A program made the position numbers and the translations under genes. DNA of 64,000 nt, from contig NZ_JABTCF010000003.1 of the NCBI RefSeq assembly GCF_014596745.1, forward strand, positions 1 through 64,000. The letters run 5' to 3'. Under the pieces are notes generated by a model. The model saw nothing but the letters and a program-made list of their open reading frames with translations, was not told where the DNA came from and did not search any database. The DNA is from Maribacter aquimaris (GTDB lineage Bacteria > Bacteroidota > Bacteroidia > Flavobacteriales > Flavobacteriaceae). Below, in pieces: positions 16,627 to 64,000 of the stretch. Every line of letters begins with the position of its first letter. The first letter of the stretch is position 1.

Positions 16627-16659
16627 AGTTTTGAGTTTATAAAATTTTGTTTGGGTATT

Positions 16660-17928
16660 CTAATATTTGTAATCCAGGTAATCGGCAAAGAATCGTAAAC
16701 CAAATGAAGTACCTATATCACGATTCACCATCCAGTTTTTTCCCTTTTTACTCCGAGTTCTTGTATTCACTATGGCACCCCTAAGGTTTGGGTCTGGGTG
16801 GTTTATGGAAAATCTATTTTTCAAAAGCCAGTTTAACGATAGTTCTATATGGCCTTCAAATTCGGTATATCCGTATTTGGCCAATTCCATCCATACAATA
16901 CCGGAAAATGCCACGGAAGAACCACAAATCGAACCTTTGTCGGGTTCTTTGCCATCTATGAAATTTTTGTAATAGATCGTTCCATTTTTGGTTTGAACTT
17001 TTGCATAGGCCCTAGCCGTTTTGGCTGCTCCCTCTAGATATTTTCTGTCACCGGTAAGTTCAAAGGCCTTTATCAACGATTCCGCATACCACAGGTTAAA
17101 TCTGGGATGAAAAGAACCTGCATCCATGAAATTGGGCATAAAATGCATCCAAAGTCCCTCTGGACCTTGCTTTTCCAATAAGCTATTGCATAAATTGATA
17201 TAGGCTTTCTTAAATTTTTCATCATGTGAATAGTGGTAAGCATCCAGAAAAAGCCATCCTTCGGTATTCGGTCTTGAAACGTCGAAAAGGTCTTGTTTTT
17301 CCTTATCCTTAGCTTCCCAGAATGGACTACTTTCTTTTTGAACCTCTCCCTTATTATTAACCACATCATAGCAAACCCCTTCTTTTTCGTTGTACATGTT
17401 AGCAAGCATCCAAGATGCCGCAGAGGTAGCCACTTCTGCATAATGTGGGTTATCGGTAACCCTTGAAAGTTCATAAATACCTGGGGTTCCATCGGAAATG
17501 GTGGCGAAAATAATCGATGAATCCCCAATAAAATCCCCATGAAGACCCTTTACCATTCCTTGAAGTTTCCCTTTGTCCTTGATTTCCAAACTCGTCCAAT
17601 AATTCCCGGCCGTAATTGCTCGATCGAGGTAATGCTGGTTTCCAGTAGCATGGTAGGCATGTAGGAGTGCATAAATCGCTTGTCCGGTATGCCAAGGAAC
17701 CTCATAGGGATACCACTTCCCCTCGGTCAAATTATAATCACATTGCGATTTCCCCTCTTCATCCAAAATAGTAGTGGAAATATAAGTTGCAGATTCTTCG
17801 ATTGCCTGTAAAATGCTATTCTTGACCTCTATATCTTCCTGGGCATAAGTTTCTTGGGAAATACCCACACATAAACAGAGCAGGAATAAGGGATACATGA
17901 TTTTGTAGGTAGTAGTATTGCTTTTCAT
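16660..17928 (-). CDS. Exported (alpha/alpha)6-barrel protein of the six-hairpin glycosidase type
   Basis: A 422-residue protein with a signal peptide (cleavage near TYAQ-E, residue 30). Repeated helical hairpins with WHTGQAIYALLHAY, ATGNQHYLDRA, NPHYAEVATSAASWML, FNLWYAESLIKAFELTGDRKYLEG-type and GSSVAFSGIVWMELAK segments are typical of (alpha/alpha)6 toroids (GH88/GH105-like hydrolases, uronate epimerases and polysaccharide lyases). I do not recognise the exact family. It starts 4 bp after the GH20 stop, so it is translationally close to it and likely works on the same glycan. A uronyl hydrolase would suit the GH28 partner, but this is inference. Confidence 0.7.
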   Translation of the reverse strand: MKSNTTTYKIMYPLFLLCLCVGISQETYAQEDIEVKNSILQAIEESATYISTTILDEEGKSQCDYNLTEGKWYPYEVPWHTGQAIYALLHAYHATGNQHYLDRAITAGNYWTSLEIKDKGKLQGMVKGLHGDFIGDSSIIFATISDGTPGIYELSRVTDNPHYAEVATSAASWMLANMYNEKEGVCYDVVNNKGEVQKESSPFWEAKDKEKQDLFDVSRPNTEGWLFLDAYHYSHDEKFKKAYINLCNSLLEKQGPEGLWMHFMPNFMDAGSFHPRFNLWYAESLIKAFELTGDRKYLEGAAKTARAYAKVQTKNGTIYYKNFIDGKEPDKGSICGSSVAFSGIVWMELAKYGYTEFEGHIELSLNWLLKNRFSINHPDPNLRGAIVNTRTRSKKGKNWMVNRDIGTSFGLRFFADYLDYKY

Positions 17929-17932
17929 AGGA

Positions 17933-47576: not shown

Positions 47577-47625
47577 ATAATTATTTTATTTTGTGACAAA
47601 GCGCCCCAAATGTTATTTTTGTAAT

Positions 47626-48345
47626 ATGAATGTACATGATATCATTAAACATGGATCGGATTATTTCTTACCCAATTTGTCTATCGATTTGGTAATAATC
47701 GGATATCATGAGCATAAACTGAAGTGTCTATTACTTAAAATTGGGGATAAATGGATATTGCCAGGAGGCCATATAAAGATTGATGAGTCCTTGGATGTTG
47801 CTGTGAAAAGGATCTTAAAATTCCGTACCGGTCTGGAAGAACCTTATATGAAATTTCTAGCGATATTCGGTGACAAGGATCGTAAGTTTGACAAAGAGTT
47901 TAAACAGTTCTTTGAAGATAAGGGAATCCCATGGGAGGAAGACTACTGGATAAACAACAGGTTCATCACACTGACTTTTTACTCCCTAGTAAACATTGAC
48001 AGCACCCAACCGGTACTTGGGGAATTCGATGAGGCTTTCGAATGGTTCGCCTTTGATGATTTGCCCGATATGTGGTTAGACCATAAGTCGATTGTCAACT
48101 CCGCCCGTACCAGGTTAAAGGAGGATGTGAAATACGAACAGATTACTTACAATCTATTACCTGAACAATTTACCATGCCCCAGCTACATCAACTTCACCA
48201 AACCATTCTTGAGGAAAAAGTAGACCGTAGCAGGTTTCAAAAGAAAATTCTTGCTACAGGACTACTAGAACGTCTTTCACTACTGAATAAGGATTCACCT
48301 GGAAGAAATCCATATCAATATACGTTAAGGAAAAGGGATAGTTGA
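47626..48345 (+). CDS. Nudix-domain transcriptional regulator (NrtR/AraR-like)
   Basis: A 239-residue protein from MNVHDIIKHG. I reject an 11-codon upstream extension because it runs through the operator half-site. A Nudix-like domain (about 15-150) has a broken Nudix box: GGHIKIDESLDVAVKRILKFRTG lacks the usual REExxEE glutamates, as in ligand-sensing NrtR-type regulators. A winged-helix DNA-binding domain follows (about 160-235, ending NPYQYTLRKRDS). Bacteroidota relatives control pentose or other sugar genes by sensing a sugar-derived ligand. The adjacent GH3 and GH9 genes are the likely targets. Confidence 0.88.
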   Translation: MNVHDIIKHGSDYFLPNLSIDLVIIGYHEHKLKCLLLKIGDKWILPGGHIKIDESLDVAVKRILKFRTGLEEPYMKFLAIFGDKDRKFDKEFKQFFEDKGIPWEEDYWINNRFITLTFYSLVNIDSTQPVLGEFDEAFEWFAFDDLPDMWLDHKSIVNSARTRLKEDVKYEQITYNLLPEQFTMPQLHQLHQTILEEKVDRSRFQKKILATGLLERLSLLNKDSPGRNPYQYTLRKRDS

Positions 48346-48541: not shown

Positions 48542-50320
48542 ATGAAGAACAGCCTAATCTTAACCCTTTTGCTTTTTTATAGCTGTGCCTCGCTGTTACA
48601 TGCCCAGTCCCCCATAGAGATTAGGGTAAATCTTAGAGGCTACCCAGGTGATATGCCTAAAGAAGTACTCATTCTAAGTAAAGGCGCTTTGGACAATCCC
48701 GTTTTGAAATTAAAGAATGAAAAAGGAGTAACATTAAAGGAATACCAATGCATACCCAGTGAAAACCCTTGGCCTCCCTTCCCCTATTATTACAAAGCCG
48801 ATTTTTCCGGTTTTAAAGAACGAGGGAAGTATTACTTTGAATTAGGGGAGAATAATATTGTAAGTCCGGTTTTTACGGTCGGATCCTATCCTAATTGGCA
48901 GGAGGATGTCATTGGTTTCATACGCACGCAACGTTGTGGATTTAATCCGTATACCAAAGCATTCTGCCATCAAAAAGACGGATTAAGTTTTTTTGGTAAA
49001 AGACCGGATTCAACCCGGATTGATGCAACGGGTGGATGGCATGATGCCGGTGACCAATTGAAATATCTTATTACGGGGAGCAATACCACTGCCCGATTGC
49101 TCATGGCCTATCAAATGAAACCCCATAGTTTTAAGGATGTGGTTGATGCCAGGGGATTAAAAGGTGCGAATAACCTGCCCGATGTATTGGACGAAGCAAA
49201 GTGGGGACTCGAATGGATCTTGAAACTTCACCCGAGTCCAGATGAACTCTACCATCAAGTTGCTGACGATAGGGACCACCGTGGATTTAAACTTCCCCAT
49301 GAAGAAAACGCTGATTATGGATGGGGTCCCAATAGTTTTCGTCCTGTCTATTTTGCAACAGGGAAACCCCAAGGCCTTTCAAAATATAAAAGCAAGGCAA
49401 CGGGAATAGCCAATCTGGCGGGTCGTTCGTCTGCCACCCTTGCTTTAGGGTATCAGGTCTTTATTAATTTTGAAGAATATAAGGTATTTGCCCAAACCTG
49501 TCTGAAGGCCGCTAAGGAACTATATCAAATGGGAAAATCACAAGAGGGATATCAGCAAGGCAATAGTTTTGGAGCCCCTTATCGTTATGAAGAAAACACC
49601 TGGGCCGATGATATGGAGTGGGCAGCGGCCTGCCTTTACAAAATCACCAAAAAGAAAGAATTTCTAAGAGATGCCCGAGGTTACGCCAAAATCATTGGCA
49701 ACTGGTCATGGATGGAGAGGGATACCGCCAGCCATTATGAAATGTACCCTTTTATAAACATGGGACATTATGCCTTGTGGCAAGTTGGTTCTTCCAAAGA
49801 CAAAAAAGAAATGAGTGCCTATTACAAGCACAATTTAGAACAGGTAAAAAAACGATCGAGGGAAAATCCGTATGGCATTGGCCATCTGTTTATATGGTGT
49901 TCCAATAATTTGGCTGCAGCAGTAGCTACACAAGCCATGCTATATGAAGAGATGACCGGATCAACAGAATATCGCCCCCTTATGCAAAACCATATCAATT
50001 GGCTATTAGGCCTGAACCCATGGAGTTCGAGTATGATCACGGAAATTCCAGAGAACTCCGATACACCGGTTGATGTGCATATGCCATTTTGGAGGATCTA
50101 TAAAAAATCCATTAAAGGAAGCCTGGTTGATGGCCCCTTGTGGTCTACCATACATGATAAAATGCTGGGGATAGCATTGTCCAAACCTGACGAATATGCC
50201 CATTTACAACCCGATCACATTAAGTATATGGATGACTGGGCCGATTATAGTACCAATGAGCCTACGTTGGATGGGTCGGCGGAATTACTCCTTATTTTAA
50301 CAAGATTGAGTAATGACTAG
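48542..50320 (+). CDS. Exported GH9 family glycoside hydrolase
   Basis: A 592-residue protein: signal peptide with a possible lipobox (FYSC, Cys15), an Ig-like CelD_N domain (about 24-115) and an (alpha/alpha)6 GH9 catalytic domain. The base/nucleophile-water motif GGWHDAGDQLKY places Asp168 and Asp171. The acid lies in YSTNE (Glu573). GH9 holds endoglucanases but also exo-beta-glucosaminidases. Here the next gene, overlapping by 8 bp, is a deacetylase-like protein. This makes an amino-sugar substrate plausible, though not shown. Confidence 0.92.
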   Translation: MKNSLILTLLLFYSCASLLHAQSPIEIRVNLRGYPGDMPKEVLILSKGALDNPVLKLKNEKGVTLKEYQCIPSENPWPPFPYYYKADFSGFKERGKYYFELGENNIVSPVFTVGSYPNWQEDVIGFIRTQRCGFNPYTKAFCHQKDGLSFFGKRPDSTRIDATGGWHDAGDQLKYLITGSNTTARLLMAYQMKPHSFKDVVDARGLKGANNLPDVLDEAKWGLEWILKLHPSPDELYHQVADDRDHRGFKLPHEENADYGWGPNSFRPVYFATGKPQGLSKYKSKATGIANLAGRSSATLALGYQVFINFEEYKVFAQTCLKAAKELYQMGKSQEGYQQGNSFGAPYRYEENTWADDMEWAAACLYKITKKKEFLRDARGYAKIIGNWSWMERDTASHYEMYPFINMGHYALWQVGSSKDKKEMSAYYKHNLEQVKKRSRENPYGIGHLFIWCSNNLAAAVATQAMLYEEMTGSTEYRPLMQNHINWLLGLNPWSSSMITEIPENSDTPVDVHMPFWRIYKKSIKGSLVDGPLWSTIHDKMLGIALSKPDEYAHLQPDHIKYMDDWADYSTNEPTLDGSAELLLILTRLSND

Positions 50321-51038
50321 GACAACGTTATGTATTTTATGCTTATTGATCAACCTATCGCTTTCTGCCCAAAATATGGTGGATAAGGAAGGGGCCATTG
50401 TTAGGTCGGATACGCTATATAAAAATATTAAACTCTGTTTTACGGGCCACGATTATGACGAAGGTTTTGACTATGTGCTGCGTATACTGAAAAAGCATAA
50501 GGTAGAAGGATCATTCTTTCTGACCGGCGATTTTGTACGAAGTCATAAACGTTTAGTGAAAGCCATTGCCAAGCAAGGACACTTTATCGGTGCCCATTCC
50601 GATAAGCATCTTTTATACTGTGACTGGACGAATAGGGACAGTCTGCTACATTCCACGGAAAAAATCAAGAACGATATTCTTCAGAATCTATTGGCATTGA
50701 AGCAACTTGGGATTCATCCCAAGTATTTTATGCCACCCTATGAATGGCATAATAAAAAAGTTGTGGAAATCGCTTCCGGATTAAACCAAACGACCATCAA
50801 TTTTTCACCCGGAACCCGTTCCAATGCCGACTATACCACTCCAGACATGCCTAACTATACATCCAGTAAGGCTATTTTAAAAAGCATCTATGATTATGAA
50901 TCCTTAAAGGGCTTGAATGGATTCCACTTACTGATCCATCCAGGTACGAGTCCAAAGAGGAAAGATAAATTCTATTTCCATTTGGATACACTTATTGCCA
51001 CTTTAAAGGAAAAAGGATATCAATTCTCCAAGTTTTGA
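50313..51038 (+). CDS. Exported polysaccharide-deacetylase-like protein (CE4/NodB fold, variant motif 1)
   Basis: A 241-residue protein with a signal peptide (LSLSAQ-N, residue 21) and the NodB-type barrel. The metal His pair is present as GAHSDKH, and MPPYEWHN matches motif 3. Motif 1, normally TFDDG, reads CFTGHDYDEG, so the usual Asp-Asp is replaced by a His-Asp arrangement. ASFFLTGDF-like GSFFLTGDFV follows. The activity may be altered, or the metal may be held differently. It overlaps GH9 by 8 bp and likely acts on the same glycan. Confidence 0.85.
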   Translation: MTRTTLCILCLLINLSLSAQNMVDKEGAIVRSDTLYKNIKLCFTGHDYDEGFDYVLRILKKHKVEGSFFLTGDFVRSHKRLVKAIAKQGHFIGAHSDKHLLYCDWTNRDSLLHSTEKIKNDILQNLLALKQLGIHPKYFMPPYEWHNKKVVEIASGLNQTTINFSPGTRSNADYTTPDMPNYTSSKAILKSIYDYESLKGLNGFHLLIHPGTSPKRKDKFYFHLDTLIATLKEKGYQFSKF

Positions 51039-51082: not shown

Positions 51083-54000
51083 CTATTTGATCAATTGGCT
51101 TGGGGAATGGCCAAATTGCTTTTTAAAACACCTGCTAAAATACAAGGGGTCGTTAAAGCCAACCATATGGGCTACTTCGGAGACATTATAATTTTTGGTT
51201 TTAAGGAAGGTGGCCGATTTCTTCAAGCGAATGGTCCGAATGAATTCATTGGGGGACATATCGGTCAGTTGTGTTATTTTACGATACAATTTAGAGGAGC
51301 TCATTGCCATTTCGGTACATAACATGTTCGATGTCAATTCTGGATTACTTATGTTCTCCTCTACGATTTTCTTGATTTTTGAAATTAAGTCAATATCGAT
51401 TTGTGAATGGGCCAAACTAATGACATCACTTTCCACATCTCCTGAAAATTTTTGTTTTAAATCGAAATGGATCTTAATGATATTATCGATACGGGTTTTA
51501 AGCAGGGCAGGGTCAAACGGTTTCACCAAATACCCATCGACTCCAATTTTATACCCTTTGATCCTATTTTCACTTTCGGCCAATGCCGTAAGGAGCACAA
51601 CGGCGATATGGCTTATGTTTTCATCAGATTTCAACACTTCAACAAACTCAAAACCATCCATAACGGGCATCATAACGTCTGCCACACACAATACTGGTTT
51701 TACCTTTTTACAAAGTTCTAAGCCTTCTTTCCCATTTTCCGCTTCATACACCTTATAAAAACTCGATAAATACTCTACAATATATTTTCTGAGTTCGGCA
51801 TTGTCATCTATAATTACGATTTTCTGCTTGATATCCGTATTGGTCTTAACCGGCTTTACAGTATTGGGAGCACTTACACCCGTGATAATGGGTTGTACCT
51901 TATTATCTTCTATCTTAACAGGAATCGTATTGAATTTTTCTTCCATGGAATAGGCTTCCCCATAAATGGGCAACTTAACGGTGAAAATACTACCCGATCC
52001 AGGTGAACTAACCACATCGATATTTCCTTTATGTATTTCAACCAACGCTTTTACCAAAGACAATCCTATTCCCGTACCCGTTGTATTCTCCTTACTGTTT
52101 TTGGCCTGGTAGAATCTTACAAAAATCTTCTCCCTACTTTCCTTGGGTATCCCTATTCCATCGTCGCTGACCTCTAATATCAATTGCCTATGTTCCTCCT
52201 GTGTCACACCCAGATACAAATCTATATTCCCATTCACGTTGGTGAATTTCATGGCATTCGACAATAAATTGTACAATATCTTACTGTACTTGTCTACGTC
52301 TATAAGGCACTCTTCCGGAACATCCTCAATAGTTAAATTAAAGTTGATGCTTTTGGACTGTGCCAATTCGTGGAAAGAATTGAAAATGTCCTTTGTCGTG
52401 TTCAGTATGTTGGTATTTGAAACCTTTAATTTCAACTCACCTGTCTCTGCCCTTCTAAAGTCTAAGATCTGATTCACCAAACGCAGTAATCTATTGGCAT
52501 TTTGATGGATCAAATCTACCCTGCTTCGACTGTATGAGCCTAAGCCCTCTTGTTCCAGAAGCTGTTTTACAGGCCCTAGAATAAGGGTTAAAGGGGTCCG
52601 GAGTTCATGTGAGATATTCGTAAAAAACCGGAGTTTCTCATTATTCAGTTTTTCGTCCCGCTCCCTTTTTACCTTTTCCAGAAGAAGTTCCTGTTTCAAT
52701 TTAAGTCGTATCTTAAGTTGTCTTCTAGATAAATAAAGTAACAAGGCCATTATGATGAGAATGATTAAAATACCCTTATAACTTAACCAAAATGGAGGTA
52801 AAATCTTTATATGATAGGAAGAGGTAGCACTCCAAATCCCGTCACTGTTACTCGATTTGATCTTAAAAACATAATCATTGGCATATAGGTTCGTATACTG
52901 GACTGTTCTGGAATCACTATCGGTTTCTATCCAATCGTCATCAAAACCCTCAAGCATATATTGATACTTGTTGAGCCTTTGATTGGTAAAGGATGGTGTG
53001 GAAAATTCGATGGAGAAATTTCGATTGGCGAAGTCGAGCTCAAGATTTTTGCCATAGTTCAGGTCCTTGTCAAAAGGTATTTGCCCATTGATTTCCATTC
53101 CCGGCAACAATTCCTTGTTCTGTACCTTAAATTCGGTAATCAAAGGAGCAGGTGACCAATTATTCCCTTCTATCTGTAAGGGTGAAAATTGAATGATTCC
53201 GTTTTTGGCCCCTAAATATATTTTGGAATTGTCAAAACTATAAAAACCACTAGAACTAAAGACATCCAAGCGATTACCACTTTTTACTTGGTAAATTTGT
53301 GCGGTTTTATTGGGCACGTCGTATTTGGCGATACTATTGTTCATGTTCAACCATAGGTAGCCATTTAAATCCAATGCCATTTCGGTAATCCATTTACCCT
53401 GAAGTCCCTTGGGTTCTTTTATCGCCATAAAATCATCTTTTTCAGGCTCATAAACGGCTAACCCCATACGTGTGGCGGACAAAACATTCCCTGAAAAATC
53501 AATGGTGATATCACTTACATTGTTATGGGGCAAACCAAATTCGGAACCTACCCCCTGTTCATACATTTTTATCAGCCTTAAATCATTGTCGAATTTTGCT
53601 ATTCCCCCTTCTGTGGCAAACCAAAAATCATTATTGGTATCCGCTACCACTTTATTGATTTGATACCCCGATAGCAACGTACCAATGTCTTCCCTTACCT
53701 CCATGGTTTTGGTATCCAAACAAACTGCCCCTTCGCCAAAGGAAGTTGCTATGAGGCCATTCTCCTTGTATTTTCCAAAATCAAAAATCGGGGAATTCTG
53801 AAAGCCCACATCAATAATCCGGGATATCCGTTTTACATAGTCATAAACCAGGACCTTACCATTCCATAGGCCACAGTAGAATTTTTTTCCATCATATGAA
53901 AATATACTGGCTATATCACTATTGTCATTAAACAGGGGGGAAATTTTATCTTCCTTAAGAATAAATAGTCCGTTATGACGTGTTGCGACGACAATCTTAT

Positions 54001-55129
54001 TGTCATAGGTCTTTGAAAACCCTCTGATCCTAGGAGCCTGATTATCGATTAAAGAAGAAATACCCTTGTTTAATTTGAACTGATTTTCGAAAGGATCATA
54101 TTTATCCAGTCCCTCTTCGGTACCAATCCATAATACGCCTGAAGCGTCAAAGTACAATGCGGCGATTAAATTATCGACCAATGATGTATCATCTGATAAT
54201 ATGGAATAATGCCATTCATAATCACCTGTTTTTATATCCTCTAAATTATCACAGACCAAAAGCCCCCCCAAAGTACCTACCCAATATTTATCATCGGGAG
54301 CCCTTGCGACAGACAAAAAGTAAGGTCCAAGTTTATCCCTTACAATTTCATTTTCAATATAAAGATTCTCAAAATTGTCCGATACGGTATCCAATTTATA
54401 AAGTCCTTCCCGTGTCCCTGCAAAAATGTCCGATTTATGGTCCTCATAAATAAAGTTCAAATAGGGATTGACCTCTTCTGAATTTGGGATTTTTAGGGTA
54501 TACCGTTTGATCTTTTCGATATCCCCCCGTTCATCAAGCACTATTCTAGCTACCGAACCTGTTTCATAGCTACCTACCCAAATCTGTCCTTTTTTATCCT
54601 CGAAGATTTCCTTTATATAGGTAAACCCCTCGATATTTATTTTTGTAAAACGCTCCTCCTCTGGATAAAACAGGTATACCCCTTTGCTCTTTGTCCCAAC
54701 CCATACCCTGTCGAATCGATCGACATACACTGAACGTATTTCTTCATCGGGTAAACTGTTGGGATTGTTTTCGTCAGGTAAATAGGTGGTAAATGTATCT
54801 GTCTCCGTTCTGTAGCGGGTTAATCCCTTTCTTGTCCCAATCCATAGATTATTGGAAGGCTTATCGTACAACAATACCGTAATATCATCATTATATATGG
54901 TATTGGTATCCCCTTTTGAACTCTTAAATGATTTAAACTGGTAACCATCGAATCTGTTTAATCCCGAAAAAGTACCCATCCATAAGAATCCTTTATCATC
55001 CTGAACAATATGACGAATTGAGTTATGGGAAAGACCATCCTTATCATTATAGTGCTCGAACTTAATATCCTGAGCACAAAGATGGACTTGCATGCCAATC
55101 AAAAGGAATAAGAATATATATCTAAACAT
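51083..55129 (-). CDS. Hybrid two-component system regulator (HTCS)
   Basis: A 1348-residue one-protein sensor/regulator: signal peptide, two seven-bladed-type propellers built of Reg_prop repeats (about 22-650; LSHNSIRHIVQDDKGFLWMG, LWIGTRKGLTRY, VWVGTKSKGVYLF), a Y_Y_Y domain (about 690-785), one transmembrane helix (about 790-810), HisKA with His841 in NISHELRTPL, HATPase_c (DDGIGIP, GTGIGLS), a receiver with Asp1151 in CVADVMMPVMDG, and an AraC-type DNA-binding domain (about 1245-1348). HTCSs sense oligosaccharides in the periplasm and activate the adjacent locus. The adjacent genes are the co-directional GH92/PI-PLC/GH115/phosphatase genes upstream. Confidence 0.95.
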   Translation of the reverse strand: MFRYIFLFLLIGMQVHLCAQDIKFEHYNDKDGLSHNSIRHIVQDDKGFLWMGTFSGLNRFDGYQFKSFKSSKGDTNTIYNDDITVLLYDKPSNNLWIGTRKGLTRYRTETDTFTTYLPDENNPNSLPDEEIRSVYVDRFDRVWVGTKSKGVYLFYPEEERFTKINIEGFTYIKEIFEDKKGQIWVGSYETGSVARIVLDERGDIEKIKRYTLKIPNSEEVNPYLNFIYEDHKSDIFAGTREGLYKLDTVSDNFENLYIENEIVRDKLGPYFLSVARAPDDKYWVGTLGGLLVCDNLEDIKTGDYEWHYSILSDDTSLVDNLIAALYFDASGVLWIGTEEGLDKYDPFENQFKLNKGISSLIDNQAPRIRGFSKTYDNKIVVATRHNGLFILKEDKISPLFNDNSDIASIFSYDGKKFYCGLWNGKVLVYDYVKRISRIIDVGFQNSPIFDFGKYKENGLIATSFGEGAVCLDTKTMEVREDIGTLLSGYQINKVVADTNNDFWFATEGGIAKFDNDLRLIKMYEQGVGSEFGLPHNNVSDITIDFSGNVLSATRMGLAVYEPEKDDFMAIKEPKGLQGKWITEMALDLNGYLWLNMNNSIAKYDVPNKTAQIYQVKSGNRLDVFSSSGFYSFDNSKIYLGAKNGIIQFSPLQIEGNNWSPAPLITEFKVQNKELLPGMEINGQIPFDKDLNYGKNLELDFANRNFSIEFSTPSFTNQRLNKYQYMLEGFDDDWIETDSDSRTVQYTNLYANDYVFKIKSSNSDGIWSATSSYHIKILPPFWLSYKGILIILIIMALLLYLSRRQLKIRLKLKQELLLEKVKRERDEKLNNEKLRFFTNISHELRTPLTLILGPVKQLLEQEGLGSYSRSRVDLIHQNANRLLRLVNQILDFRRAETGELKLKVSNTNILNTTKDIFNSFHELAQSKSINFNLTIEDVPEECLIDVDKYSKILYNLLSNAMKFTNVNGNIDLYLGVTQEEHRQLILEVSDDGIGIPKESREKIFVRFYQAKNSKENTTGTGIGLSLVKALVEIHKGNIDVVSSPGSGSIFTVKLPIYGEAYSMEEKFNTIPVKIEDNKVQPIITGVSAPNTVKPVKTNTDIKQKIVIIDDNAELRKYIVEYLSSFYKVYEAENGKEGLELCKKVKPVLCVADVMMPVMDGFEFVEVLKSDENISHIAVVLLTALAESENRIKGYKIGVDGYLVKPFDPALLKTRIDNIIKIHFDLKQKFSGDVESDVISLAHSQIDIDLISKIKKIVEENISNPELTSNMLCTEMAMSSSKLYRKITQLTDMSPNEFIRTIRLKKSATFLKTKNYNVSEVAHMVGFNDPLYFSRCFKKQFGHSPSQLIK

Positions 55130-55187: not shown

Positions 55188-57032
55188 TTATGGAACAACT
55201 CGCTCTATCTTACCGGTCTTCAAATCGATCTTAAAATGGTCCGAAGGTTCCCCACTGCAAACTTTCATAAAAATACTGGCCCATAGCCGTAAATTCTTAT
55301 AATCGGATTTCCTCAATTGTTGACATACAACTTTATATCCTTCAAGCCTTTTTTCGTCGATATCGGAAAATGCCAATTCATCGGCATTTCTGATTTTATA
55401 AAAATCATGTATCATATGCAAGCCTGTCCAGCTATCCAATGGTGCCATTTCCGTATTTTTTTCCTGCAATCGTTTGTAGAAAGCATTATATTCTTCTTCT
55501 TGGTCAAATCCTAACTTTAGTAGGTCCTCTCCCGAAGATCGTATAAGTAAGAATTTCAAATTTTCGGGCCAATCCTCCTCTAAAAATCGAAGACGGACCA
55601 ATTCATTTAAATGCCACGTTGTAAATTCCTTATAGGTTTTGGCATCCAATATGCCCTTGTCCCAAATAGCACTATCCTTAACCTGTTTGAGATAATCATA
55701 TTCCTTTTCATACAATGGGAACAAACTATCAAAATCAGGAACATTATCGATGACAACGGTCTCTATTTCAAAAACATCATTGTCTTTTAACGTCAGTAAT
55801 TTATAACCTGGCACATAGGCAGCCATGGAGGGTATCTGTACATTGACCAAGCTTCCTGATTCCAAATGCCTTTGTCCGGTATCGTTCATATGCATATGTC
55901 CCCCAAAATGGACCTTCACCCCGGCTTCTATCAACATTTGGGACACACTATCCTTAGGCACACGATGCAATTGCATTTTTTTTGCCCCAAAAAGGGCTTT
56001 GATTTCTGGGACAGCCCCATCATAAAAATCCAATGTAGGGTAATGACTGAATACAATCAGGGTCTTTCCTAATTCCTCTGCCCTAGTAGTGACCGATTTT
56101 ATCCAATCCAATAAATGTGCCTTATGCAAGAGTATATTATTATACCCTATGCTCGCACTACTAAAAAGTTTAGGATCCCCAGTGTCTGCATCTGCTTCTG
56201 GCTTAGGTACATAAACGTTGGCATCTATGGCTAAAAACCATACTTCGTCCAACGGTTCTACAAGGTAACTAACGTCGGGGATCATTGGTGTATCCTTATT
56301 GGACCTATACATCCTATTTTCAAAAACGGCCTGTTTTTCGGCTTCATTAAAATCATAGTTTCCATAGTCATAGGAAGAAAATGGGGATTCCCAATACCTA
56401 TCCTGTGGTTTGGGGAAAAAACCGAAATCCTGCAATTCATCCAATATTCCTACATATCCTAATTTGGCAATATCCTGGGTTATAATAACGGGCAAATCAT
56501 CATCGTTTTTGGGTGAAAACAGCCCTTTTTCACTAAAAATAGCTTGGGATTGGCCATTTTCACCTAAAAAGTCCGTTTTCCCCGCAGCCATTCGAAAAGG
56601 GCGTACAGGGTCATGATTACCCGTCGTCAGGATAAAACGAATGCCGTATTTTTCGGTGTAGTTGTCTAAAATCTGCTTTAACCCCCGAATATTGAAAGCT
56701 TGACCATCATCACTAAAATCACCTGGTAAAACCACCAGTTTCACGCCCTTTTTAACCACATCATCCAAAGCGGCCAGAAAGGCAAAATAATTCTCATTGA
56801 ACAATCGCGTAGATTGCAATTGGGATTGCATGGTTCTGGCCAAGGTATATTTTCCTGTTTGTGGATTTAGTACACCTTTAAATTCGTTGTCGGTAAACTC
56901 TCCATAAATATCAGATAAATGGACATCTGACATAAAGGCAATTTGAAGCGGCTGTACAGCGTGTTCCGGGTCTTGTGTACAACCAAGAAAAGTGATTCCA
57001 ACCAATAAGATAATTACCTTGCGCAACATCAT
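55188..57032 (-). CDS. Metallophosphoesterase lipoprotein
   Basis: A 614-residue protein with a lipobox (TFLGC, Cys18). The calcineurin-type metallophosphoesterase domain (about 28-410) has MSDVHLSD (D36, H38), LPGDFSDDG, TTGNHDP, VFSHYPT and FGGHMHMND. A C-terminal helical extension of about 190 residues is unassigned. It would hydrolyse phosphoesters at the outer membrane or in the periplasm. It is 15 bp after GH115 and 58 bp before the HTCS gene, so it belongs to the same transcription unit. In an operon with a PI-PLC it is a natural candidate for removing the remaining phosphate, as inference. Confidence 0.88.
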   Translation of the reverse strand: MMLRKVIILLVGITFLGCTQDPEHAVQPLQIAFMSDVHLSDIYGEFTDNEFKGVLNPQTGKYTLARTMQSQLQSTRLFNENYFAFLAALDDVVKKGVKLVVLPGDFSDDGQAFNIRGLKQILDNYTEKYGIRFILTTGNHDPVRPFRMAAGKTDFLGENGQSQAIFSEKGLFSPKNDDDLPVIITQDIAKLGYVGILDELQDFGFFPKPQDRYWESPFSSYDYGNYDFNEAEKQAVFENRMYRSNKDTPMIPDVSYLVEPLDEVWFLAIDANVYVPKPEADADTGDPKLFSSASIGYNNILLHKAHLLDWIKSVTTRAEELGKTLIVFSHYPTLDFYDGAVPEIKALFGAKKMQLHRVPKDSVSQMLIEAGVKVHFGGHMHMNDTGQRHLESGSLVNVQIPSMAAYVPGYKLLTLKDNDVFEIETVVIDNVPDFDSLFPLYEKEYDYLKQVKDSAIWDKGILDAKTYKEFTTWHLNELVRLRFLEEDWPENLKFLLIRSSGEDLLKLGFDQEEEYNAFYKRLQEKNTEMAPLDSWTGLHMIHDFYKIRNADELAFSDIDEKRLEGYKVVCQQLRKSDYKNLRLWASIFMKVCSGEPSDHFKIDLKTGKIERVVP

Positions 57033-57047
57033 TTGTTCAGCTTAAAA

Positions 57048-60005
57048 CTACATTTTTGTTTCTGATGGAAATGCATATGAGTCTTTCCATCCTCCAAGAT
57101 CGATCAATACCTGATCTAGCATCACCCCTGGATCTACCATCCAGATTTTCAAGGTATGCTTTCCCGCTTTGTCAACAATTTGTTTGGCGGATTTTACCGA
57201 GGCATTCTTCAAAACATTCCGTTTCCATTCATCACTTCGACCCAAAGTCTGAAAATCAACCAATACAGGTGCTGCATCATCAATGGCAATAGCACACCTA
57301 ACCCCTCTTCCCTCAAAAAAAGAGTGCGTTGGTATCGCTTGCACATTTACATTCACCTCCCCAAAATTAAAGGTATAAAAATCATATTCCAAAGACGGAC
57401 TGTCCTTTAATATATCGGATATATTTACAATGGACGCCACGTTTCTTGGCAAAGCAGCACTAACGGCATTGGAATATCCCAGTCCGTCGATTGTTTCCCA
57501 AGAAGCTTCCTTACCGTCTTTTTTCCTTGTGAAATTTTCTGCGTTTATAGAGACGAAGCCTTTATCCTCCACAAAGCCTTTATAATTCTCCAACGCTTTG
57601 AATTTAGGATTGAATACCGATACACCAATTGTCGTTTTTTCCCCATTGGCCACAAAACCAATGGCGGAGTTCACCTTATAACTCGGTGGAATCAATTGGT
57701 AGTCATGCCCTAACGGGGCTTCTTTTTTGTTCTCCCCCTTGGGTACCCGATCCCAATCAATGGTTACCCAAAGCCGATCTTCCGGGTGGTCTTCATCGAG
57801 GTTTCCTAATGTTTTTGATATCCGTATCCAATCTGCCATCGGTTTGGCTTCCCACTCAATAGTACCATTACCCTTAAGAAATACATCTATATAATAGGTG
57901 TTTTTGGTATAAGCGTTAAAAACGGGGAGTACATCGGCATAACTGTTAATGACCTCATTATTGACCTCCATCTGATAACTTTCCAACGCCAATCCCAATG
58001 ATGGAGCTTCCGATTCGGGTACTGCAGAAACCGATGGTTGTGAAAATACAGGCAAATGTCTAGGGGCCATGGTCATAATATGGTTCCATTTACCACCCTT
58101 TAGGGCGGTGTTGTAATACTCGGTCTCCGCTTTAATGGTTTGAAAAGCTTCTTGGGATTTGTCGGCAAAATAGGAAGTACTTTCCCTTCCTTGATCTGCT
58201 ACAAACTGATTTTTATAAGCATATAACCATTTTTGGTTTAAGAGGGAAGCTCCGGCCACAGGATAATAGACCAATTCATAAAAAGCGTCTTGTTGTGCTT
58301 TTGAAATCCTGGGTTGCAAGCCCTTTACTTTAATCAATAACGCCTCGTAAGCCTTAATCCTATCCATTACTTCATCGCCATAGTGATATTGGGTTAGTTC
58401 GGTTTTACCAGCTTTCGTTACCGGTTCTACTTGACTCCACCCCATAAATTCAGGTCTTCGTTGGAAGGCCAAATTGTAATAATCATTCATGATCTTGGTA
58501 ATGGCAGCGGCATTTTCCTTTCCGAATTCCCTTGCGGCCCATTGTTGATGATGCACTTCCACAGCATTGTTGTTTTCAAATTCCCCCATGTTCCAGGCCA
58601 TATCCAAAAACAGTTCAATATTGTATTCATGGGGTTTAATATCCCCGCAATTCAAAATCCATAAGTCCCTCGATTTGAATCCGTAGGCCTTTGACATCTC
58701 TTCCCACATCAAAACCGGGTTGGTGGAGTTCAACCACAGATAATCGTGTGGCCTACCCCAATATGAGGTATGGTAATACACTCCGGCCCCACCAGAACGT
58801 TCTTGTTCTTCTGGATTACTTAATTGGCGAATGTATCCATAATTATCATCGGTCCATACCAAGGTAATATCCTCAGGGAGTTCCAATCCGCTTTGATAGT
58901 AGTGTAACACCTCTTTGTACGGTACAAAGGCTTGGGGCTTAGGAATCCCTTTCTTTGCGTATTTACCTAATATTTCCCGTTGGTCCGTAATAACCTGTTC
59001 CAACAATTCTACTTGGGCCTCGGTATTATCTTCACCCATGATCATTGGCGAATCGTGTTCCCCACGCATACCTACCGTGTAAATACCTTCAAAATCCTTT
59101 GTTTCCTTGGCTCTTTTTTTAAAAAGGTTCTTTATAGAGGTTGCATTCGTATCATAACGATACTCGCCCATACGGTCATGATCCCATTCGGCATTAATAT
59201 TGCACAACATAGGTTCGGCATGTGAGCTACCCACGACTATCGCATACGCATCCGCAACTTCCTTGTTTTTAGGATAATGATAAAAGGCTTTGGTGCATTT
59301 ATGCATGGCAGGCCAAATCGTATTTGCCCTTAAACGCAGTAACAGTTCAAAAACCTTGGCATAGGTTTTTGGACCAATATCCCCCGTTTCCGGTTCATAG
59401 TTTAAAGCAGCCCAACGCTGTAGTCCCCAATCCTCATCATTAAGGAAGATTCCACGATACTTTACCGATGGTGATCCATAGGTTTTATCCGCTATGGAAA
59501 GTACCATATTTTCTTTTTGTACAGGAGTGGAATCTGCCCACCACTCCCATGGAGAAACACCAATTTTCCTACTTAGCTCTAGTAACCCATAGGCCGTGGC
59601 CCTTCTATCGGACCCCACAATGACCAAGGCTTTTTCAATATCCTTTGATGGGTTTTCCAAAACCTCGATATGGTAGGTTTCCCATTTTCCTTCTAGGTCT
59701 GAAACATCGATTTTCCTTTGTTTCACCAAATCATCAATGACCTTGCTTTTACCCAATGTACCTGCGATAATCCGGAATTTGGAAGATGCACCCGAACGGA
59801 TTTTTTGCCCTGTGACCTTATGAATATCATCAATCAACATTTGAGCGGCGATCTGTACAACCTCTGCATCATTTTTATCAATATGCAAAGCGGTTTGGAT
59901 CGTACCTGAGACGATAGGGAAATCCGTCACTTTTTGAGCATTCACTTGAACACACAACAGCACCAGTACCCATGTGTTTTTCATTGAAAATGTTTTTAAA
60001 AACAT
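57048..60005 (-). CDS. GH115 family alpha-glucuronidase
   Basis: About 985 residues from MFLKTFSMKNTW; MKNTW at 59984 would also work and gives a cleaner signal peptide (VNAQ-K). The open frame extends further upstream to 60230, but that part overlaps the PI-PLC gene and is not protein-like. GH115 hallmarks: VKYRGIFLNDEDWGLQRW, LLRLRANTIWPAMHKCTKAF, VGSSHAEPMLCNINAEWDHD (short segments), GMRGEHDSPM and NCGDIKPHEYNIELFLDMAWN. A C-terminal beta-domain binds sugars in known members. The family removes alpha-1,2-linked (4-O-methyl-)glucuronic acid from glycans, classically xylan. No other xylan enzyme is in this operon, so another GlcA-containing glycan is possible. Confidence 0.93.
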   Translation of the reverse strand: MFLKTFSMKNTWVLVLLCVQVNAQKVTDFPIVSGTIQTALHIDKNDAEVVQIAAQMLIDDIHKVTGQKIRSGASSKFRIIAGTLGKSKVIDDLVKQRKIDVSDLEGKWETYHIEVLENPSKDIEKALVIVGSDRRATAYGLLELSRKIGVSPWEWWADSTPVQKENMVLSIADKTYGSPSVKYRGIFLNDEDWGLQRWAALNYEPETGDIGPKTYAKVFELLLRLRANTIWPAMHKCTKAFYHYPKNKEVADAYAIVVGSSHAEPMLCNINAEWDHDRMGEYRYDTNATSIKNLFKKRAKETKDFEGIYTVGMRGEHDSPMIMGEDNTEAQVELLEQVITDQREILGKYAKKGIPKPQAFVPYKEVLHYYQSGLELPEDITLVWTDDNYGYIRQLSNPEEQERSGGAGVYYHTSYWGRPHDYLWLNSTNPVLMWEEMSKAYGFKSRDLWILNCGDIKPHEYNIELFLDMAWNMGEFENNNAVEVHHQQWAAREFGKENAAAITKIMNDYYNLAFQRRPEFMGWSQVEPVTKAGKTELTQYHYGDEVMDRIKAYEALLIKVKGLQPRISKAQQDAFYELVYYPVAGASLLNQKWLYAYKNQFVADQGRESTSYFADKSQEAFQTIKAETEYYNTALKGGKWNHIMTMAPRHLPVFSQPSVSAVPESEAPSLGLALESYQMEVNNEVINSYADVLPVFNAYTKNTYYIDVFLKGNGTIEWEAKPMADWIRISKTLGNLDEDHPEDRLWVTIDWDRVPKGENKKEAPLGHDYQLIPPSYKVNSAIGFVANGEKTTIGVSVFNPKFKALENYKGFVEDKGFVSINAENFTRKKDGKEASWETIDGLGYSNAVSAALPRNVASIVNISDILKDSPSLEYDFYTFNFGEVNVNVQAIPTHSFFEGRGVRCAIAIDDAAPVLVDFQTLGRSDEWKRNVLKNASVKSAKQIVDKAGKHTLKIWMVDPGVMLDQVLIDLGGWKDSYAFPSETKM

Positions 60006-60006
60006 A

Positions 60007-61074
60007 CTATTGGATTTTAATGTTTTCATAAGTACCATCCTTAAAAATGACTTTATAGTCCGATTTGAACAATTGGGAAGGGATATAATAATCGGTTGAG
60101 ATAACCTGGGCACCCGAAGCCTTGGCTTTTTCGAATTTCGAATAGTCATTGTTACGCGCCTCCTTGGTCGCTGCATCTGCCCGGGTACGTACCATATACC
60201 CTTTGGCAACGAGTTCTTGAATGTAGTCAAAATCCCTGATTGGGTTATTGATGATTCGAAAGGCTGCCTCCGGATTCCCTTCCTTACTATTCACAAAAAG
60301 CACGCGGTTCTTTAAACTTGGGTGTCCTTCCAAATACCTGTTTATTTTCGCTTCTTTTTCATCCAAGACAAACAAAAAACGCCCTTTAACTTCATTTAAG
60401 CTAGGCCAACCTTGTGTTAAAACAGCCTCTTCCAGAGAATCAAATTTACCTCTCACCCTATCTGGTGTTATTAGTTGATCATTAGGGAAAACAGCCCTGA
60501 TTTCATCATCAACCGTATCCAATGCTTCTTTTGAAAATGGCAGAGGGTCTCTCGTCCCTGCTACTTTTTGATCCTTGGTGTTCATCAGAATAAAAACTGG
60601 AGAATGATCGGGATGTATATCCGACCAAGCCTTAAGTGCTTCCAATCCCTCTTTAAACAAGAGATGGTGACTTCTAAAATCAACATCTTGAATATGGAAC
60701 ATTTTCAATCCAGGTTTTGCCAATATATTTTCTGTATCGAAGGGTAAGGGTTCGTGTCCTTTTGTTTTTTCAATTTCCAAACCCTTTGGATTCGAAAAAT
60801 GCCCGCCTTTAGGGTCATAGAAGATATCAAGTTCCAAATTACGCAAACCCAGATCCAATTGTTCCGTCAAGGGGATATGGCCGTATTGCAAGGATATGGC
60901 CTTAGCCGAATCCAATTCATAAAGATAGTCCCACAGAGAAGGGTCAATTGGGATTTTGTATGAATTATGGCTTCCAATGACTTGGACTTCATTCAGCCCT
61001 ACCACCATGCTTTTATTACAAGAAAACAGTATTAATCCAAGCAGAAAAAGACAACTTTTAATTTTCATATTCAA
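60007..61074 (-). CDS. Ca-dependent PI-phospholipase-C-like lipoprotein (PI-PLC-C1)
   Basis: A 355-residue protein with a lipobox (LFSC, Cys19) and a PLC-like TIM-barrel of the PI-PLC-C1 type. Catalytic-site motifs: GSHNSYK (His36), RNLELDIFYDPKGG (Glu81, Asp83) and MFHIQDVDF (His127, Asp130), with a late STDYYIP strand. Family members cleave phosphatidylinositol or related phosphodiesters using Ca2+. It is directly between GH92 (no gap) and GH115 (1-bp gap), so it is co-translated with glycosidases. This suggests that the target carries both sugar and a phosphodiester, such as a glycosyl-inositol-phospholipid or anchor. Confidence 0.88.
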   Translation of the reverse strand: MNMKIKSCLFLLGLILFSCNKSMVVGLNEVQVIGSHNSYKIPIDPSLWDYLYELDSAKAISLQYGHIPLTEQLDLGLRNLELDIFYDPKGGHFSNPKGLEIEKTKGHEPLPFDTENILAKPGLKMFHIQDVDFRSHHLLFKEGLEALKAWSDIHPDHSPVFILMNTKDQKVAGTRDPLPFSKEALDTVDDEIRAVFPNDQLITPDRVRGKFDSLEEAVLTQGWPSLNEVKGRFLFVLDEKEAKINRYLEGHPSLKNRVLFVNSKEGNPEAAFRIINNPIRDFDYIQELVAKGYMVRTRADAATKEARNNDYSKFEKAKASGAQVISTDYYIPSQLFKSDYKVIFKDGTYENIKIQ

Positions 61075-63321
61075 CTATTTAATTGTCCAGCTTTTATTAG
61101 GTTCCTTACTTAAGGTCAACTCAAGTTTTCCTCCTTTTGCAATTTCAGCATAACTTAACCAGCTTCTTTTTAAATCTTCCCCATTTAGTTTTGCTGATTG
61201 AATATAAATGTTGTCCTCTGAAAAATTGGCACAAACAATGTGAAAAGGAACATTAAATGCATCTAAGGTTATTTCTTCAAATATGGGAGTGGATATCTGA
61301 AATTTAGTATCGCCTGGACAGGTTTGATAAAGGCCGATGGCCGCCAGATTGTACCAAGCAGACATGCAACCAAAGTCGCCATCCATTTCTTCCAAAAACC
61401 CGTCTGGAGTATCTTTATAAACATAATCCAAAATAGGTTCTTTAAAAAAACCATGCGTACCATAAAGCTGGGTCGTTCTTTTTTTCACCAATTGGTTCAC
61501 CCATTTTTGGGTTAACCAAGGTGCTCCTGCTTCATTGAAAAGAAAGGGAGCGTGTAAATCGATCTGATTGCCGGCAGTATATAAATCATTCTCGAAAAAA
61601 TAATCAAGGGCTTCCACAAAGGCTTTATTTCCTCCTAAGGCTTCAATCATACCGTTCATATTATGCAGGGCATTCCATCGCCAATGCCATTTAGAGCCTT
61701 CATAGGTGTATTTTTCACGATTATCCCTTGGGTCCTCCGGAAAGTCGAGCCATTTGCCATCTGCACTCCGTGCCCGAAAAAACTTAATTTCAGGGTCCCA
61801 ACTATTTTTCCAATAATTTGCCCTTTTTGTAAAGTAACTGTAATCATCATTCTTATTGAGAGTTTTTGCAAGTGCTGCAACACACCAATTATCCCAACTA
61901 TATTCACCGGTTTGATCTGGACGGGCCGGAATGAAACCTATCGAATCATAACTTTTAGGCATTTGCAATAGTGTTTCTTCTTTCAAATAAGGATACACAT
62001 CCTTAATATCGAGTTCATCATGAAACAGGCCTTTATAATACGCATCGGTCATTACCATAAGCATATGTTCATGTCTGCAGGTGCTAAAAGCCGTACTGCC
62101 ATCTTTTCCATGGGCACTGAACAAGGGGGATTTGTGGGGCTTATGGTCACTATTGGGAAATGGGTCCCAATTATTGGCATATTTGTACACATCGTAAATT
62201 GAACTCGTGATATCCGAATATACATCAGGGCAAAACAAACTATACAAAGGGTATTTGGTACGAAATGAATCCCAGAAAGCGAATCCATTATAGTGTTTAT
62301 AGTTTTCGGCCATGTGTAATTGGGCGTCAAACCCTAAAAAGGTTCCATCATAATCGGATTGCACAATAGGTAAAAAGCAGGAATGGTATAGGGCTGTATA
62401 AAAAATTCGTTTATCCCTTGTGTTATTTCCTCTTATCTTGATACCCGAAAGCCTATCCCTCCAAAGCTTTTCAGCTTCCAATTTAACATTCTCGAAATCC
62501 CATGTTGTACATGTAGCCTTCAAATTCTTATTGGCGCTGTTTATACTGGTAAAAGAAACACCGACCTTAACAAGCAATGGTTCGGTTAATTTCCCAAAAT
62601 CACAAATGAAATTCCCTACGGATTTATCATGTTTGCCTTGTTCTTCATTCTTAATGAGGGGTTTATTAAAGACAATAGTGAAATAAGGACCATTTATTTT
62701 ATCAAAATATCCTTCAATGGTGTGTTCATCCACAACATTATAGTGTAAATCATTCGTTAAACTACTATTCCCTGATGACAATAGAACTTTTGCGTCTTCT
62801 GTTTTTTTAAAGCTATATCGATGCATACCAACATAGGAAGTTGCCGTTAATTCTGCCTGGATACCCTGCTCTTCGAGAAGTACGGAATAATAACCAGGGC
62901 TAGCCTGTTCAGTTGCCTTGTCTATTTCGGAGGTAGGATTCTTTATCCAATCGTCATTGGTTATTGTATGAAATGGCAAAAGTGATAATAACCCAGCACG
63001 ATCATGTATACTCCCACCACCGGAACTACCAGTTCTAAAGTGACTAAAACCCCTAACGATGGAATCTGAATAATTATACCCCGAATGTGCCCAGTCCCCA
63101 TCTCCAGTGAGACTACTCGGGAATGTATCCGGACCTAGTTTTACCATGCCAAAAGGAACTAATGCTGATGGATGCCAGTGCCCATGATCTCCCTCTGTAC
63201 TTATAAATGGATCAACAAAACTTAATACATCTATCGCTTTGACTTTTTCCTGTTCTTTCTCTTTACACGATAGAACAATTAAAAAAGAAAATAAAACGGT
63301 TAAAATTTTAAATGTTTTCAT
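61075..63321 (-). CDS. GH92 family alpha-mannosidase-like lipoprotein
   Basis: A 748-residue protein with a lipobox (IVLSC, Cys19). The GH92 N-terminal sandwich starts FVDPFISTEGDHGHWHPSAL (split) and GYNYSDSIVRGFSHFR. The (alpha/alpha)6 domain ends with the family signature, here MDGDFGCMSAWY (646-657), where most members have GNDDxGQMSAWY. GH92 enzymes are Ca-dependent exo-alpha-mannosidases. The changed signature (Gly-Asp-Phe) sets it apart and may shift specificity toward another axial-OH sugar or a phosphorylated mannose. It leads the GH92/PI-PLC/GH115/phosphatase/HTCS series and follows the GH3 gene by 150 bp. Confidence 0.9.
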   Translation of the reverse strand: MKTFKILTVLFSFLIVLSCKEKEQEKVKAIDVLSFVDPFISTEGDHGHWHPSALVPFGMVKLGPDTFPSSLTGDGDWAHSGYNYSDSIVRGFSHFRTGSSGGGSIHDRAGLLSLLPFHTITNDDWIKNPTSEIDKATEQASPGYYSVLLEEQGIQAELTATSYVGMHRYSFKKTEDAKVLLSSGNSSLTNDLHYNVVDEHTIEGYFDKINGPYFTIVFNKPLIKNEEQGKHDKSVGNFICDFGKLTEPLLVKVGVSFTSINSANKNLKATCTTWDFENVKLEAEKLWRDRLSGIKIRGNNTRDKRIFYTALYHSCFLPIVQSDYDGTFLGFDAQLHMAENYKHYNGFAFWDSFRTKYPLYSLFCPDVYSDITSSIYDVYKYANNWDPFPNSDHKPHKSPLFSAHGKDGSTAFSTCRHEHMLMVMTDAYYKGLFHDELDIKDVYPYLKEETLLQMPKSYDSIGFIPARPDQTGEYSWDNWCVAALAKTLNKNDDYSYFTKRANYWKNSWDPEIKFFRARSADGKWLDFPEDPRDNREKYTYEGSKWHWRWNALHNMNGMIEALGGNKAFVEALDYFFENDLYTAGNQIDLHAPFLFNEAGAPWLTQKWVNQLVKKRTTQLYGTHGFFKEPILDYVYKDTPDGFLEEMDGDFGCMSAWYNLAAIGLYQTCPGDTKFQISTPIFEEITLDAFNVPFHIVCANFSEDNIYIQSAKLNGEDLKRSWLSYAEIAKGGKLELTLSKEPNKSWTIK

Positions 63322-63471
63322 TTAGGCTTACTATTTAAATATGATAATCTTGATTTATTAAAACCCAAATCCTTTACAACGCATCTTGATCTGGAAGGGA
63401 ATAGAAGAACATTGTATTGAATATTGAATAGATATTGTTAAGTAAAAAACCAATGTTTTTTGACTTTACTA

Positions 63472-64000
63472 TTATCTCAATTTTATCGATTTCTTTAAAC
63501 GAATATCCTGGGAGGAGGCTCCGATCATAAATGTATACTTACCCTTTACAAAAGTCCATTCCTTATTTTGATCATCCCAAAACCGCAAATCCTTTTTGGA
63601 TACCTTTAACTGTATGGTTTTCGATTCCCCTTTATTTAAGGATATCCTTTTAAAACCTATGAGTTTTTTCAAAGGCCGTACAACGGATGATTCCTTGATA
63701 TTATAGTACAATTGTACCACTTCATCACCATCGAATTCCCCTGTATTCTTTATAGTAGAGGAAAGCATTAAAACATCGTTTTCCTTTTCGATTTTTATGC
63801 CCCCATAATCAAATTCCGTATAACTTAACCCATACCCAAAAGGATACAGTACATCGCCCTTAAAGTACATATAGGTTCTGCCATTGGTGATTTCGTAATT
63901 GTCCATGGATGGTAAGTCGGAAACCGATTTATAAAATGTAAATGGTAATCTGCCAGCAGGATTATAATCTCCGAACAAAACATCGGCAATGGCGGTTCCC
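63472..64000 (-). CDS. GH3 family glycosidase, C-terminal part (cut by window edge)
   Basis: The open frame continues through the right edge. The visible 176 or so residues begin GTAIADVLFGDYNPAGRLPFTFYKS, quoted in part, which is the end of the GH3 alpha/beta sandwich. A fibronectin-III-like domain follows, with YPFGYGLSYTEFDYGG and NTGEFDGDEVVQLYYN. The catalytic barrel lies outside the window, so specificity cannot be judged. It is the most upstream visible gene of the PI-PLC/GH92 cluster. Confidence 0.92.
   Translation of the reverse strand, partial: GTAIADVLFGDYNPAGRLPFTFYKSVSDLPSMDNYEITNGRTYMYFKGDVLYPFGYGLSYTEFDYGGIKIEKENDVLMLSSTIKNTGEFDGDEVVQLYYNIKESSVVRPLKKLIGFKRISLNKGESKTIQLKVSKKDLRFWDDQNKEWTFVKGKYTFMIGASSQDIRLKKSIKLR

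Follow-up and report, generated by a model that had tools for sequence, protein, structure and literature searches.

The first 64,000 bases of contig C21 of Maribacter aquimaris (the window; the contig has 459,863 bases, the genome 4.86 Mb, and contig and window numbering are identical) contain the tail of a complete 29-kb polysaccharide utilization locus (PUL) on the minus strand, in which a calcium-dependent phosphatidylinositol-specific phospholipase C (PI-PLC) gene stands among glycoside hydrolase (GH) genes. Gene content and conservation indicate that the locus is probably a complete PUL for head groups of glycosyl-inositol-phospho(sphingo)lipids, most likely the glycosyl-inositol-phosphoceramides (GIPCs) of plants or algae. 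An earlier sequence-only reading of the window had proposed glycosyl-inositol-phosphate degradation, and this proposal was supported by a divergent operon with a myo-inositol oxygenase (MIOX), by co-location statistics, by 49 related loci and by sister loci with GH89, HGSNAT or GH125 genes.

Gene content of the locus

The locus showed the order SusC-SusD-GH92-GH28-GH115-like-GH92-GH29-GH3-GH92-PI-PLC-GH115-metallophosphoesterase-HTCS, with adjacent SusC and SusD, eight GH genes and a hybrid two-component system (HTCS) regulator in a single run. The gene set predicted to serve for removing alpha-mannose (Man) or alpha-glucosamine/N-acetylglucosamine (GlcN/GlcNAc), alpha-glucuronic acid (GlcA) and inositol phosphate and for using inositol was found to be present. 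The six families first noticed (GH3, GH92, PI-PLC, GH115, metallophosphoesterase and HTCS) all gave Pfam matches on the minus strand and form the tail of the PUL. The gaps downstream of the last GH92 gene, put at 0-58 bp in that reading, were 0, about 1-20, 15 and 58 bp. Its interval of 55188-64000 held for five of the families but not for the HTCS, which lies just outside at 51083-55129.

The PI-PLC, a predicted lipoprotein (60007-61074, minus strand; PF16670, 6e-127), is the sole copy in the genome. Its ATG is likely at 61068 and its lipobox was read from the sequence as LFSC. The AlphaFold model (pLDDT 93.9) gave a Z score of 25 against the Pseudomonas Ca-PI-PLC structures 5fyo, 5fyp and 5fyr (25.2 to 5fyr), 23.7 against the Streptomyces antibioticus PI-PLC 3h4w and 16-17 against eukaryotic PLCs. 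The protein thus combines the family profile with a modelled TIM-barrel fold of the solved Ca-PI-PLCs. Residues H36, N37, E81, D83 and H127 were invariant across 45 homologues and the segments GSHNSY, RNLELD and FHIQD were conserved. We take these residues to be the catalytic His pair and the Asn/Glu/Asp calcium ligands, by analogy with PLC-delta1 and not by superposition.

The GH115 alpha-glucuronidase (57048-60005, minus strand; PF15979, 4e-132, and GH115_C) carries a predicted periplasmic signal peptide. The open reading frame start at 60230 overlaps the PI-PLC gene, so the real start is taken to be the ATG at 60005 or 59984, after which the signal peptide follows. The nearest solved structure was BtGH115A (5by3, E 3e-179), followed by SdeAgu115A and BoAgu115A. 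Besides the profile match, the protein keeps the counterparts of BoAgu115A R328, D332 and E375, which mutagenesis had shown to be important (PMC3879575); the residue check comprised these three positions. The PUL contains both GH115-family genes of this genome, and none was found in the GH10 xylan cluster, which lies apart on contig C25. The second of the two, the GH115-like gene (C21:69671-71749, minus strand; PF15979, 62 bits), belongs to a divergent lipoprotein clade, has no GH115_C match and shows YAD in place of the YKE motif that holds E375 in BoAgu115A. This clade has at least 17 members with 53-84% identity, was almost always found in loci of the present kind and is possibly a separate uronidase family.

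A divergent operon begins approximately 340 bp from susC and extends to position 85283 of the contig, outside the window. It encodes a mannonate oxidoreductase of the SDR type (C21:80777-81589; NF006132, 368.9 bits with a cut-off of 281), UxuA (C21:81607-82794), MIOX (C21:82812-83684; PF05153, 7e-111) and an SSS symporter (C21:83712-85283) with the sodium/glucose cotransporter vSGLT as nearest solved structure. MIOX, better known from eukaryotes, is present as the only copy in this genome; it matched mouse MIOX (2huo) over most of its length with an E value of 4e-87, and the iron-binding His/Asp and substrate-site motifs were conserved. The glucuronate isomerase UxaC, needed to connect the MIOX and mannonate steps, is encoded elsewhere in the genome. 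Taken together, the operon is predicted to be a route burning inositol via glucuronate.

Of the remaining glycosidases, the three GH92 genes (C21:73418-75490, C21:67359-69674 and 61075-63321, all minus strand) have retained the EG-W glutamate that aligns with solved GH92 alpha-mannosidases. The last encodes an alpha-mannosidase-type lipoprotein (PF07971, 3e-109; PDB 6f8z, E 1e-91). In GH92 enzymes of the mannosyl-phosphate hydrolase type, Gln replaces Glu as the acid; this assignment was rejected, since Glu was kept in all three. The GH3 gene with a PA14 domain (C21:63472-66024, minus strand, with its 3' end in the window at 63472-63999; PF01915/PF14310) is beta-xylosidase/arabinosidase-like, and its nearest NCBIfam model was Xyl3A with a score far under the cut-off. 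Reading the locus past the window edge gave the other genes on the minus strand: SusC (C21:77353-80439), SusD (C21:75661-77334), GH28 (C21:71786-73414) and GH29 (C21:66051-67355). The metallophosphoesterase lipoprotein (55188-57032, minus strand; PF00149, 1e-11) showed weak PDB similarity to Lmo2642 only, which did not narrow its specificity. The HTCS (51083-55129, minus strand) has Reg_prop, Y_Y_Y, HisKA, HATPase, RR and HTH_18 domains.

Co-location and related loci

A total of 299 genomes sampled from the family, mostly of different genera but related, were surveyed with co-location defined as within 30 kb. Full-length PI-PLC was found in 21 genomes, GH115 in 46 and GH89 in 20. MIOX occurred as two types, which were clearly separate in Flavobacteriaceae (about 362-379 versus 313-327 bits); the window's type was found in 20 genomes and the other in 26. 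The window-type MIOX was co-located with GH115 in 14 of the 17 genomes with both genes (expected 0.46), with PI-PLC in 10 of 13 (expected 0.20) and with GH89 in 7 of 7 (expected 0.11), while PI-PLC was co-located with GH115 in 10 of 16 (expected 0.42). The second MIOX type, used as internal control in the same genomes, was near GH115 in 0 of 7, near GH89 in 0 of 3 and near PI-PLC in 1 of 4. Chance pairing was rejected on the basis of this survey and its control. The gene pairing whose absence from related genomes would, according to the sequence-only reading, have refuted its proposal was present in relatives. In the genomes G160, G162 and G274, no GH115, GH89 or PI-PLC was found near the window-type MIOX. 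In another genome (G017:C3:79025-86866), a second-type MIOX lies 7 kb from PI-PLC and its frame holds two TGA codons.

A scan of the genome contig collection, in which Maribacter polysiphoniae (strain DSM 23514) and M. luteus were the nearest relatives and have this locus too, returned 80 loci; MIOX was counted within a 10-kb flank only. A glycan context was found in 49 of these (L013-L061), with PI-PLC in 49, phosphoesterase in 48, HTCS in 48, GH115 in 38, GH115 or GH115-like in 44 and MIOX in 22. These loci keep the PI-PLC-(GH115)-phosphoesterase-HTCS arrangement: the phosphoesterase is directly 3' of PI-PLC or PI-PLC-GH115 in most of them, and the HTCS almost always follows directly after it. 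Their hosts included Maribacter, Flavobacterium, Cellulophaga, Algibacter, Wenyingzhuangia, Seonamhaeicola, Ancylomarina and Prolixibacteraceae, among others. The other 31 loci (mostly Algoriphagus; Zobellia and others) have PI-PLC, with phosphoesterase in 18 and SusC in 23, but neither MIOX nor any of the above glycosidases. A PI-PLC tree labelled by context needed 3 label changes compared to approximately 25 in shuffles, which suggests that the PI-PLCs of the two contexts are largely separate; the branches of this tree are long, and it is no proof that the glycan context arose only once.

Sister loci showed different outer-sugar enzymes. In Flavobacterium loci (e.g. L038, L043 and L045), genes for an alpha-N-acetylglucosaminidase of family GH89 and a homologue of HGSNAT (E 9e-19 against the human protein) are directly upstream of PI-PLC, and the names or histories of several of these species hint at soil or plant roots. 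In Algibacter, Seonamhaeicola and Hyunsoonleella loci, a GH125 alpha-mannosidase holds the position directly upstream of PI-PLC. In other Bacteroidia families, MIOX was found with GH89, HGSNAT, GH28 and UxuA (G434), with HGSNAT, GH89, GH28 and GH92 (G493) and with GH115-like and GH92 (G638). In G585, G560, G608 and G667, no such genes were seen near the window-type MIOX. The loci in G434 (L188) and G493 (L198-L199) are compact SusCD, GH89, HGSNAT, GH28 and MIOX loci with no GH115 or PI-PLC nearby, and GH28 may be the uronidase in them.

Proposed substrate and alternatives

The natural cabbage GIPC head is Man-alpha1,4-GlcA-alpha1,2-myo-inositol (PMC12498067). GIPC heads with hexosamine or N-acetylhexosamine occur in rice and tobacco, and plants other than cabbage have GlcN or GlcNAc where cabbage has Man (PMC9113257). 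The sister-locus enzymes, GH92 or GH125 for alpha-mannose and GH89 with the HGSNAT-like protein for alpha-GlcN/GlcNAc, match these known heads, and it is this exchange of enzymes for the outer sugars that speaks most strongly for GIPCs as substrate. Given this head chemistry, GH92/GH125 or HGSNAT-GH89, GH115, PI-PLC and MIOX would therefore cover every head unit. It also seems fairly likely that the locus belongs to a widespread Bacteroidota family for GIPC heads which recovers sugar, glucuronate, inositol and phosphate and in which the modules for the outer sugar (GH92/GH125, or HGSNAT-GH89) can be exchanged to suit the head chemistry of the plants or algae on which the bacteria feed.

In the proposed route, whose order, locations and transporter cargo are, like the substrate, predicted from gene content and conservation, SusCD would capture the glycan of the head group, or the lipid. 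GH92 (in sister loci GH125, or HGSNAT-type acetylation and GH89) and GH29/GH3 would strip outer alpha-Man, GlcN(Ac), fucose and other sugars, and GH115, possibly also GH115-like or GH28, would take the alpha-1,2-linked GlcA off inositol. The Ca-PI-PLC would split inositol phosphate from the lipid and the metallophosphoesterase would release phosphate from it. The SSS symporter would import inositol (or GlcA), and MIOX would oxidise inositol to D-glucuronate, joining the GlcA already released. Glucuronate would then pass through UxaC, mannonate oxidoreductase and UxuA to 2-keto-3-deoxygluconate, and the HTCS would sense a breakdown product.

Several points weigh against GIPCs as substrate. BtGH115A, the closest characterised GH115, is reported for decorated arabinogalactans, according to the title of a study cited in PMC11036162, and GH28, GH29 and GH3 are not expected from the simplest GIPC heads. 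The GlcA of GIPCs occupies inositol O-2, which is free in classical PI-PLC substrates (2-OH attack), so the PI-PLC would have to act after GH115 or via another hydroxyl, yet the GH115 looks periplasmic. Several related loci are without PI-PLC, and no ceramidase was found in the locus, with only weak ceramidase-like matches elsewhere in the genome. UxuA does not count as independent support for GlcA release because glucuronate made by MIOX alone could need it. The co-location P values, which reach 7e-20, treat the genomes as more independent than they are, since the surveyed genomes are related.

GIPCs and glycosylphosphatidylinositol (GPI) anchors had both been considered to fit in the sequence-only reading. 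GIPCs are now favoured, and GPI anchors, or glycoproteins that carry them (arabinogalactan proteins, for example), although the main rival, are an unlikely substrate. The alpha-mannose core would be removed by GH92/GH125 and the alpha-glucosamine by HGSNAT with GH89, PI-PLC would cut the phosphatidylinositol and MIOX would burn the inositol. GPI stays the main rival because HGSNAT and GH89 could also serve its GlcN. A GH115 resembling BtGH115A could even have arabinogalactan decorations as its target, but enzymes for the arabinogalactan backbone were not found in the PUL. GPI anchors have no GlcA, which leaves the GH115 or GH115-like genes of 44 of the 49 loci unexplained. The related Streptomyces antibioticus PI-PLC1 is said to use the inositol 6-OH, a lead for which support was sought in the literature and not found. 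If such use held here, the PI-PLC would take 2-O-glycosylated inositol and not the 6-O-glycosylated inositol of GPI, and this selectivity, if true, would tell the two substrates apart.

Phosphate scavenging, in which phosphodiesters would be the phosphate source for PI-PLC, phosphoesterase and SusCD while the glycosidases would do no more than clear the way, is improbable. Its model is PUSI of Flavobacterium johnsoniae (Fjoh_4168-4173; Lidbury et al., PMC8115612), the closest known system, where a PF16670 PI-PLC neighbours a PF00149 phosphoesterase beside the SusCD pair (PusCD), as in the window locus, and which is induced by phosphate depletion. The 31 glycosidase-free PI-PLC loci, mostly with phosphoesterase and SusC, also fit such a role. 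However, the PUSI cluster includes a gene for an ECF sigma factor and has no glycosidases, HTCS or MIOX/UxuA, whereas the window locus has eight GH genes, an HTCS and inositol/glucuronate carbon catabolism, and the PI-PLCs of the two contexts stand mostly apart on the tree. About as improbable, or slightly more so, is a PUL for a polysaccharide with glucuronate and mannose (glucuronomannan, arabinogalactan or xylan side chains) with PI-PLC and MIOX as accessory or accidental genes. Polysaccharide PULs often contain GH92, GH115, GH3, GH29 and GH28, and the arabinogalactan activity given for BtGH115A would agree with it, but the locus lacks an endo-acting backbone enzyme and the linkage of MIOX to GH115, GH89 and PI-PLC is far above chance across genera and other Bacteroidia families. 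A genome-wide search gave strong GH10 matches on contig C25, weaker ones on C22 and none on C21. A xylan PUL was rejected because the strong GH10 genes, the endo-xylanases expected of it, are on another contig without GH115. That separate xylan cluster (C25:175657-189535) has five GH10 matches within 14 kb, one with an in-frame TAA. Least probable, and very much so, are mannosylated or fucosylated fungal inositol-phosphoceramides or other algal inositol lipids in place of plant-type GlcA-bearing GIPCs. The host's relatives are marine and alga-associated, the window set has GH92 and GH29 and no GH89, and fungi carry mannosyl-inositol-phosphoceramide (PMC9113257), but GlcA on inositol-phosphoceramide is described as plant-specific in the same review and GH115 is nearly universal in this family of loci.

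With plant or algal GIPCs as the favoured substrate, the locus supplies a candidate enzyme for each bond of the head, including an alpha-1,4-mannosidase for trimming Man-GlcA; in the cabbage study, none of several mannosidases tested did so (PMC12498067). Among plant sphingolipids, GIPCs are one of the most abundant classes, at approximately 64% of the pool according to a review (PMC9113257), and their breakdown is therefore a sizeable flow of carbon and phosphate. Neither a GIPC or inositol-lipid PUL nor a bacterial route of GIPC breakdown was found in the open-access literature searched, which did not include preprints; with this coverage its silence is weak evidence of absence. The locus would also tie bacterial MIOX to a substrate and, if the assignment is true, yield reagents for analysing GIPCs and a marker by which GIPC feeding could be recognised in the genomes of rhizosphere and marine bacteria.

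Comparison with known systems and neighbouring genes

The window locus resembles a classical HTCS PUL in its SusC, SusD, lipoprotein and periplasmic GHs and HTCS, but adds a phospholipase, a phosphoesterase and MIOX, and its predicted substrate is a phospholipid head. Botrytis cinerea GIPC-PLC1 (PMC11496612) is likewise a phospholipase C cutting plant GIPCs; it is fungal, was cloned as a putative sphingomyelinase and has no linked head-group catabolic operon described, whereas the window enzyme is a predicted bacterial TIM-barrel Ca-PI-PLC. The HGSNAT-like acetyltransferase and GH89 of the sister loci recall the lysosomal pair HGSNAT and NAGLU that acts on heparan, but they are bacterial, stand beside PI-PLC, GH115 and MIOX and have GlcN-GlcA-inositol as predicted target. 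The window GH115 shares its family and the tested catalytic positions with BtGH115A and the xylan GH115 enzymes; its genomic setting differs, and inositol rather than arabinogalactan or xylan is the aglycone predicted for it.

Genes for a GH78-like protein, a GFO/IDH oxidoreductase and a 3-keto-disaccharide hydrolase (DUF1080) were identified at C21:85293-90305, downstream of the symporter gene. Homologues of the latter two also adjoin a related locus in G254 and MIOX in G162. Within the window, a purple-acid-phosphatase-like metallophosphoesterase (730-1917), SusD (2901-4634) and SusC (4646-8143) look like another phosphate-type SusCD locus. A TonB receptor, a GH20-like protein with a weak catalytic-domain match and GH28 are consecutive at 13801-22050 and represent a candidate second glycan locus. 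Finally, GH9 followed by a polysaccharide deacetylase was found on the plus strand at 48542-51038, adjoined by a NUDIX/NrtR-type regulator (47593-48345).

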